A stretch of DNA of 64,000 nt from Dissulfuribacter thermophilus (GTDB taxonomy: Bacteria; Desulfobacterota; Dissulfuribacteria; Dissulfuribacterales; Dissulfuribacteraceae), in contig NZ_MAGO01000009.1 in assembly GCF_001687335.1 (NCBI RefSeq), positions 62,001 to 126,000 of the forward strand. Reading direction: 5' to 3'. The position numbers and the translations under genes are program-made. Shown here one piece after another: positions 40,988 through 46,994 of the stretch (positions are counted from its first letter, which is position 1; each line of letters opens with the position of its first letter). Below the pieces are notes generated by a model. The model searched no databases. It was not told the DNA's origin and saw nothing but the letters and a program-made list of their open reading frames with translations.

Positions 40988-41356
40988 CTTTTTAAAAGTG
41001 TTGAGCACTTCAGAAGTGTTGAGTTTTGAGTTATGAGTTTTGAGTTGAAGGAAAGACTTTGAACCTTTACCTTTTTATAATGTCTTCGGCCTTCGGCCTC
41101 TGAGTTTGGTACATGCAGGTCTTGCTTCTACCTTCTACCTTCTGCCTTCTACCTGTTAAGATTAGGGAGAAGTTAGAAGCTTTTTAAAAGTGTTGAGTTA
41201 TGAGCACTTCAGAAGTGTTGAGTTTTAAGTGTTGAGTTATGAGTTGAAGGAAAAGAACTTTGGAAGTTTTGAGTTGAAGCTAGAAGGGAGGGCCTCTGGC
41301 TATTGTACGAGCAGGGCTTGCTTCTACCTTCTACCTTCTGCCTTCTACCTGTTAAG
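40988..41356. repeat. Two ~190-bp tandem-like units ending in heptamer runs
   Basis: Unit 1 starts CTTTTTAAAAGTG at 40988 and unit 2 with the same sequence at 41180. Both continue with TTGAGTT/ATGAG-rich stretches and end in CTTCTAC heptamer arrays (41125-41160 and 41321-41356) closed by CTACCTGTTAAGATT. No coding frame is apparent. The heptamer block recurs at 45524-45554 (inverted), 45659-45694 and 61844-61868. Confidence 0.75.
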
Positions 41357-44805: not shown

Positions 44806-45378
44806 TTAAATCCGGTTAATTTCCTCGAATATCTTCCTGTGCTGAAGGTTTAGGTCTATGCCCAGGGCTTCAGCCCTGTCTTTAAGGGCCTTTCTGAAAC
44901 GTTCCTGATCGATGTCCTTGGGGATGTCAACTTCATAGATCATGATGTTGCGGGCAGGATCTGTTCCCCCTCTGAACACAGCTCTCAAATTGGTGATGTT
45001 TACCCCGAAGTCAGCCATGACTTCGGTAATTCCAGCCACAAGACCGAGCCTGTCTGGGCCAATAGTGGTAACGACAAAAGGCTCTCCCTCCACATTATGT
45101 ACATACCTTTCGTCTGTTACCATCTCCTTTACCAGCACGTGGAGTCCTAGGGGGTCAAGGGCATCCTGTAACAGTGAGCGGAGACCATGTGCCTCCAAAC
45201 CATCTGGGATGGAAACGATGAATATGGCAGCTAATTCTGTCTGGAGCCTTGTCTGGTTTACATCTTCAATATTGCAACCATTTTCGAAAAGATGTCTGGC
45301 TACCAGTGCCACTATACCTGGCCTGTCAGTACCCAAGACCGAGATAACTATTTTCTTCCCTTTTTTTTGTACGTTCAT
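44806..45378 (-). CDS. ACT-domain regulator (GcvR-like)
   Basis: 190 aa with two ACT-like domains: ISVLGTDRPGIVALVARHLFENGCNIEDVNQTRL and TTIGPDRLGLVAGITEVMADFGVNITNLRAVF. Similar proteins regulate by binding amino acids. Probably co-transcribed with the DUF711 gene, its usual neighbour. Confidence 0.88.
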   Translation of the reverse strand: MNVQKKGKKIVISVLGTDRPGIVALVARHLFENGCNIEDVNQTRLQTELAAIFIVSIPDGLEAHGLRSLLQDALDPLGLHVLVKEMVTDERYVHNVEGEPFVVTTIGPDRLGLVAGITEVMADFGVNITNLRAVFRGGTDPARNIMIYEVDIPKDIDQERFRKALKDRAEALGIDLNLQHRKIFEEINRI

Positions 45379-45478
45379 GGTATCAAATCAAATACTCTCT
45401 ATTACATCTTCTCTATGTACAATCCGGTATAGCTCAAGATCTACCCAAAAGTCAATAGTTTTCCCGAATTATACACTT

Positions 45479-45752
45479 CATACTACACGACACCACATTC
45501 TGCCAATTTATGATATAGTTATTAGGAAGAAGGTAGAAGGAAGAAGGTAGAAGCTTGGCAAAAGCTGATACTATTGCCTGCAGGCCTGCGGGAAAGCCTG
45601 GCAAACCCTACTCCAAGTTCCACCCAGTGGCCCATAGGCAGTGGCATCAGCAATTCATGCTTCTCCCTTCTACCTTCTTCCTTCTACCTGTTACACTGTA
45701 CGGGGTAAATTTTTCATGATTACAGCATATTATCCTGGTGTCGTGTAGTATG
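45479..45752. mobile_element. 274-bp MITE-like element with 17-bp terminal inverted repeats
   Basis: CATACTACACGACACCA (45479-45495) and its exact complement (45736-45752) bound a non-coding segment. A second, inner inverted pair of heptamer-rich sequence (45524-45554 and 45659-45694) is nested within. No transposase frame is present and no clear target duplication was found. It lies in the 458-bp gap between the ACT gene and a histidine kinase. Confidence 0.65.
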
Positions 45753-45836
45753 ATGCACTTACAGGCCTTAGGGTACACGAGTAACGCCTGTGTTTGGTAC
45801 GAACCAGGAATGCTCCCATACCATACCTCGTTTTTG

Positions 45837-46994
45837 TCAGTATTCTGATAAACGACGGCACAGTTCAGGGAAATCTATATCTTCCTGTTCCTTGGAACCA
45901 CTAGAAGACGGCCATACAATGGGTTTTTTGGGCAGGCGGACGTGGAATATTGCACCCCCCTGTGGGTTGTCCTCTACGTTGATATAACCGCCATGCAGGG
46001 CAACTGTCTGACTGGCAATGGCCAGTCCAAGTCCTGTACCAGGTATGTCTTTGGCCAGCCTTTCAAATTGCTTGAAGATGCGTTTTTTATACTTGTCTGG
46101 TATGCCCGGACCAAAGTCAGTGATAAATACTGATATGTATTCTGGGTCTTCTTTGGCAGACAGTATCAGTTTGCCGCCACTGGATGCGTATTTGGCTGCG
46201 TTTACCAGGATGTTTTCAAATACTGTCTTGAGTATGGACAGTCCTTTTATGGGAAGGCTCTGATCAATGAGGTTTTCCACCTTCATACCAGCCTGTTTGA
46301 AGGTAGGCTCAAGTTGAGATACCAATTCTTTGATGAGGGCGGCCACGTCGACATCCTGGAAAGTCAATTGCTGACGATTGAGTACGCTTGACAGTACATC
46401 TACGTCCCGTATGAGCTGTAATATATGGCTAGCACTCTGATATATGTCTTCTATATCATCCTTGATTGGACCGAGCTTTTCCGGTTCATCCAGTAGCATC
46501 TCGGTGGCATGTAGTATGGCTCCAATAGGGGTCCCAAGATCATGACGTACCATGCGTAATAACAGGTCCTTTAGCCTATTGGCCCTTGACAGGCCCACAG
46601 CTGTTTCCTGAAGGGCTTGTTCCATCTGCTTTCGTTCGGTGATGTCGCGCAAGATCTCCAGTGCACCAATCAGCTCGCCATTTTCATCATAGATGGGGGA
46701 GGCTGCTGAGTGAACCACCATACGTTCTTGGCCGTGAAACTCTATGACGGACTCGTGCTCATGTCTGTGCCCGTCTAGAAACACTCTGCGGACCGAGCAG
46801 TGAGGGCATGGTTTGTCTATGTCATGTAGCCACCGGTAACATAGACCGCCAGTCTTGAGAGATGGAAACCATTCACGACTACGACGATTCCTGAGGATAA
46901 TACGCATATCAGGCGATATGATATGGATCGCGTCTGGTGCCGCGTCTATAACATGTTGATATATAGAAAGTTGTTTTTTTAGTGAATCAGTCAT
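45837..46994 (-). CDS. Cytosolic PAS-domain sensor histidine kinase
   Basis: 385 aa without membrane segments. The N-terminal PAS domain contains a Cys cluster GGLCYRWLHDIDKPCPHCSVRR, a C-x11-C-x2-C pattern that could bind metal or sense redox. It is followed by PAC, H-box MVRHDLGTPIGAIL, N-box NILVNAAKYAS, and ATP-lid DFGPGIPDKYKKRIFKQFERL with GTGLGLA. No response regulator is adjacent. The 269 bp upstream (46995-47263) are very AT-rich and hold no gene. Confidence 0.9.
   Translation of the reverse strand: MTDSLKKQLSIYQHVIDAAPDAIHIISPDMRIILRNRRSREWFPSLKTGGLCYRWLHDIDKPCPHCSVRRVFLDGHRHEHESVIEFHGQERMVVHSAASPIYDENGELIGALEILRDITERKQMEQALQETAVGLSRANRLKDLLLRMVRHDLGTPIGAILHATEMLLDEPEKLGPIKDDIEDIYQSASHILQLIRDVDVLSSVLNRQQLTFQDVDVAALIKELVSQLEPTFKQAGMKVENLIDQSLPIKGLSILKTVFENILVNAAKYASSGGKLILSAKEDPEYISVFITDFGPGIPDKYKKRIFKQFERLAKDIPGTGLGLAIASQTVALHGGYINVEDNPQGGAIFHVRLPKKPIVWPSSSGSKEQEDIDFPELCRRLSEY

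Follow-up and report, generated by a model that had tools for sequence, protein, structure and literature searches.

A probable MITE of Dissulfuribacter thermophilus with a heptamer-array interior and the same 17-bp ends as an IS4-like insertion sequence of a relative

The 274-bp element at 45479-45752 of the window (the whole 64-kb stretch of Dissulfuribacter thermophilus DNA that was analysed) is very probably a non-autonomous element of the MITE type, with an interior taken from a heptamer repeat family; an IS4-like DDE transposase recognising its 17-bp ends would move it in trans and produce a 9-bp target duplication. The original prediction had already read it as a MITE, a reading now supported by further copies in the same genome and by an insertion sequence (IS) with the same ends in a relative, although the window copy has an imperfect duplication of its own and no empty site turned up.

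The window element and its surroundings

Features of the element, its flanks and the neighbouring genes, in window coordinates:
44806-45378, minus strand: neighbouring gene with two ACT-domain stretches, the element lying upstream of it
45471-45478, no strand: left flank ATACACTT, possible degraded target duplication
45479-45752, no strand: whole element, probable non-autonomous transposable element, 274 bp
45479-45495, plus strand: left terminal inverted repeat, 17 bp, the same 17 bases as at both IS ends in locus L056 of the relative
45531-45553, plus strand: nested inverted pair, left arm, an array of GGWAGAA-type heptamers
45564-45578, plus strand: left arm of an inner imperfect inverted pair
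45637-45651, minus strand: right arm of the inner imperfect inverted pair
45667-45689, minus strand: nested inverted pair, right arm, a heptamer array complementary to the left arm at 23/23 positions
45736-45752, minus strand: right terminal inverted repeat, 17 bp, exact, again the same 17 bases as at both IS ends in L056
45753-45760, no strand: right flank ATGCACTT, possible degraded target duplication (from the flank comparison)
45837-46994, minus strand: neighbouring gene for a PAS sensor histidine kinase

The perfect 17-bp terminal inverted repeats that had been predicted 274 bp apart could be located exactly, with CATACTACACGACACCA at the left end and its exact reverse complement at the right (17 of 17 bases, beyond chance) and 240 bp between the arms; the inverted-repeat tool gives this pair 18-bp arms because a flanking T and A also pair. 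The second, nested pair proved to be the two 23-bp heptamer arrays, 100% complementary to each other, and inside it lies a third, imperfect pair of 15 bp, recognised by eye and paired in the predicted fold. Across the 64-kb window, a search for perfect inverted repeats (arms of 17 bp or more, spans of up to 300 bp) gave the terminal pair, the nested pair and a register-shifted heptamer match (45524/45682) and no more, and 30 simulated windows of the same composition (first-order Markov) yielded none. As proposed, the short element is non-coding as far as visible and lacks a transposase gene. The sole listed frame of at least 80 aa reaching into it (44942-45550, plus strand) runs antisense through the ACT-domain gene, which we take to be gcvR-like, and was rejected as not credible.

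Copies, shared ends and the candidate partner transposase

The 17-mer is not found only here, as the refuting outcome named for the MITE reading would have had it: it occurs exactly five times in the 2.52-Mb genome, against none for a reversed control, and 16 times at up to three mismatches, against two. A DNA search of the same genome for copies of the element, with the best 40 of 70 first-look candidates scored and copy numbers therefore to be read as 'at least', revealed several dispersed copies. One on contig C10 (C10:114190-114450) is 94% identical over 261 bp and lacks the outermost bases at one end; a related form of 293 bp (C1:303k), aligning in two pieces at 83% and 91%, is flanked by a perfect 9-bp target duplication, as had been foreseen for further copies of a MITE; another (C1:77k) is missing its right end; and two short forms, C1:132k and C15:24k, measure 118 and 101 bp. 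In alignment A1 the heptamer interior is common to the window copy, C10, C1:303k and C1:77k, both ends being present in the window copy and C1:303k, and the short forms C1:132k and C15 keep both ends with little interior. Since four copies share the interior together with at least one end, and two of them both ends, the ends and heptamer interior most likely moved together as one composite.

Among 60 genomes, the own genome counted, ten carry the 17-mer at up to one mismatch; all ten belong to the 46 genomes from its order, and the 14 remaining genomes have none. In one of these (G001; same family, another genus) two exact 17-mers face each other 1297 bp apart (L056:1501-2797) and enclose a 383-aa frame with a TTG start codon. 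The expectation that the 17-mer would lie at the ends of a transposase-bearing IS was thus borne out exactly, at both ends, in this relative, though not in the own genome. The window element and the G001 IS share, by eye, about 20 bp at the left end and 17 at the right. In the same IS, a 17-codon frame (L056:1571-1642, by eye) starts at an ATG preceded by AGGAGG; it ends just before the 383-aa frame and is out of frame with it.

The G001 transposase matches DDE_Tnp_1 (PF01609) at 38.8 bits (cut-off 23) and NCBIfam IS4_2 with an E-value of 9.9e-28, the latter at 97.2 bits and so below its cut-off of 152. With the IS4 family it has in common the DDE transposase domain, and the IS as a whole the CAT-starting ends (IS231 and ISH8 subgroups), a 9-bp duplication and a length of 1297 bp, judged by the sections of the family description that we drew on (PMC2266710). 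It departs from the family as described there in the Y(2)R(3)E(6)K motif, whose positions read F-R-E-N, and seemingly in the D-E spacing: D94, D166 and E264, chosen by eye, lie 71 and 97 residues apart, against D(60-110)D(100-150)E. Because of the motif and the D-E spacing of 97 we call the likely partner IS4-like rather than a full member of IS4; judged from its sequence, the transposase is IS4-like in part only.

Beyond G001, a contig of a Deltaproteobacteria MAG (JALWQB010000194.1) has the same two-end arrangement and, judging by contig number and coordinates, is presumably the G001 copy. The exact 17-mer was found in four stretches from three Deltaproteobacteria MAGs, one labelled SeepSRB2, in the genome_contigs collection, where records of the own genome may be left out, and in no stretch of the viral contigs. 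Within genus g4, five genomes hold seven paired short forms of 53-165 bp; six loci there (L049, L052, L053, L054, L055 and L062) are very short paired forms of 53-64 bp with the same ends. The transposase itself is scarcer: at E<=1e-10 only G001 has it among the 46 genomes of the order, and at E<=1e-15 a match was obtained in three of 395 genomes of the phylum, a sample drawn from a larger group and seemingly without G001, which was not matched. The transposase of one of these (G285), 40% identical to that of G001, is flanked by two 14-bp ends, CATACTACTGGACA; around the other two matches, both partial, no CATACTACTGGACA-type ends were found. A phmmer search for a transposase relative of solved structure gave no match at E-values up to 10.

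A search of the own genome with the G001 transposase gave nothing at E<=1e-10. The genome has nine PF01609 matches, and tblastn with the G001 transposase around six of the nine loci gave nothing better than E 0.5; around these six fetched loci the nearest end-like site has four mismatches (L111). On contig C16, CATAGTRCACAATATCA lies downstream of the transposase frame at two PF01609 loci (L111:2281 and L112:2257) and may mark the terminus of a different IS whose ends are distantly similar. The assembly is a draft of 27 contigs, not closed, so an unassembled IS copy is possible; a collapsed one is disfavoured, since even the end-like match closest to a contig end, among the 16, is about 7 kb away from it (C10). 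No matching transposase was found in the draft, so the copies are probably orphaned and immobile, left behind by an IS that has since been lost. The mover would then have been a G001-type transposase, or a close relative of it since lost, supplied in trans and recognising the 17-bp ends, and the later loss of the matching IS would have left the remaining copies immobile.

Target duplications

Flanks were compared for 13 paired elements of our choosing, the G285 IS having been added separately. We excluded L060 and L044 as second instances of the L056 IS and the window copy respectively, and also the L059 pair (arms pointing outward), the L051 pair (981 bp apart, one arm with four mismatches) and all single ends. 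In the 9-bp register, 66 of 117 flank bases agree over the 13 elements, compared with a mean of 37.0 when right flanks were permuted among them, and none of 20,000 such shuffles reached 66; registers of 8 and 10 bp were weaker than that of 9 (fractions 0.0021 and 0.0219). The family as a whole, over these chosen elements, therefore shows a 9-bp target duplication, consistent with transposition that would duplicate 9 bp of target. Agreement is complete in C1:303k and in the G001 IS (GTTCAAATT, 9/9), falls to 8 of 9 bases in L062, 6 in L049 and L052, 5 in C15, L055 and the G285 IS, 4 in L061 and 3 in L053 and L054, and is lowest in C1:132k (2, despite perfect ends) and the window copy (1). At 9 bp, the G001 IS duplication falls within the range of roughly one helix turn (7-13 bp) tabulated for IS4 family target duplications (PMC2266710, table 1). 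The duplications lie outside the 17-bp ends, in the G001 IS as well.

For the window copy, 7 of 8 bases agree between 45471-45478 and 45753-45760 in an 8-bp register, against 1 of 9 in the register of the family, and its own target duplication is therefore degraded at best. An empty site was sought by synteny in the family's other two genomes (G001 and G002), neither of which matched the neighbouring ACT protein at E<=1e-20.

The heptamer interior and competing explanations

Heptamer repeats like those of the interior are dispersed in the own genome, where a composed 102-base query gave at least 47 matches at E<=0.001, with the best 40 of 63 candidates scored. Members have a conserved start, TTTACCGTGAAAATACCCGTTGGG, and GGWAGAA-type heptamer arrays, which at many printed loci are followed by AACTCAA-type arrays; two lie in the window, at about 41096-41166 and 41292-41354. 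Elsewhere in the order, in 45 further genomes with at most 19 candidates scored per genome, there was no match at E<=1e-5, an absence that is not firm for G011, G017, G024, G026, G028, G031 and G040 because they had more candidates than were scored.

No element end of its own was found near 27 of 30 fetched heptamer-family loci. The other three (L071, L080 and L097) have an end beside the member, with scores of 20, 25 and 29 where 150 shuffled loci reached no more than 17; at L095 the only end shown is that of L080, about 0.9 kb off. At C1:174k (C1:174246, L080) and C5:62k (C5:62080, L097), one left end, about 30 bp long, leads directly into a family member, and the junction looks the same by eye in both, which either shared ancestry or recurrent insertion into one spot might explain. 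At C5:62080 the element end is preceded, 12 bases away, by the end of a gene for tRNA-Pro (anticodon tgg, ARAGORN; L097:1383-1459).

The element had been thought either to have captured the heptamers or to have generated them. Since the family is the more numerous and 27 of the 30 loci have no end of their own, capture fits better and generation less well: the interior looks, from its sequence, like a captured copy or variant of a family seen only in the own genome, and the element is probably not the ancestor of that family. With an interior of this origin, ends and interior could fold together into one long hairpin.

The hairpin bears on another explanation, in which the inverted repeats serve as a terminator, attenuator or small RNA and have been retained upstream of the ACT-domain gene for that role. 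Both strands of the element do fold far better than 200 shuffles each (z of -9.70 and -9.46), and it sits between two genes of the same reading direction. Nonetheless, the same sequence is present at other, unrelated sites and its ends are those of an IS. Against such a role, too, Rfam gave nothing above gathering score on 45379-45836 (MIR844 and MIR529 fell below threshold, at E 0.14 and 0.81), and a promoter/terminator scan stayed near background, with one promoter-like and one terminator-like site against 1.1 and 0.6 in shuffles. We regard a functional hairpin as extremely unlikely.

It is also very unlikely that the element is a decayed full-length IS whose transposase gene was lost at this site and whose small form never moved, for although its ends are identical to those of the G001 IS, the same small interior recurs in copies at other sites, the small form at C1:303k has its perfect 9-bp duplication, and beyond about 20 bp no G001 IS sequence can be recognised by eye in the window element. 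Similarly small are the chances that the heptamer family is itself the mobile unit, with the 17-bp ends as its passenger or target. Its greater number and the seemingly identical junctions at C1:174k and C5:62k would suit that account, but an end stands beside a member in only 3 of 30 loci and the duplications are placed outside the ends. Compatible with the MITE reading, though in our view unlikely, is the suggestion that the composite served as a vehicle: IS ends would have taken up a heptamer hairpin and brought it to new sites, the members at C1:174k and C5:62k being offshoots, and part of the heptamer expansion would have been driven in trans by the since-lost IS.

As a MITE, the window element looks like an ordinary kind of bacterial mobile element. 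BrickBuilt, a minisatellite-containing MITE of Porphyromonas gingivalis, is an earlier example of a tandem array within such an element, and in the portions of its description used here (PMC4596501) it resembles the window element in being small and intergenic, with inverted-repeat ends, several copies and an internal repeat array. BrickBuilt has a 23-nt tandem unit and occupies 19 places in ATCC 33277, whereas the window element has inverted heptamer arrays and fewer copies and, unlike BrickBuilt as described in those portions, shares its exact ends with an IS of a relative. In many bacteria heptamer repeats are over-represented, yet they have received little study; those of Xanthomonas and Nostoc (units GGGAATC and GGGGAYT) likewise form intergenic arrays, some as inverted repeats, but the units differ from those of the window element and the relevant passages do not mention transposon ends (PMC4692102, in the excerpts consulted). 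Our literature search returned no paper treating Dissulfuribacter together with MITEs, and 'IS4' does not occur in the main text of a review of prokaryotic MITEs, to the extent that text was available (PMC10969869).

The present family thus adds, within one bacterial order, a MITE family of paired elements of 53-293 bp for which a full-length IS with the same ends is identified. It also provides a case of a MITE-type element carrying a heptamer array, and carriage by transposable elements may be one testable way for heptamer repeats to reach new sites.
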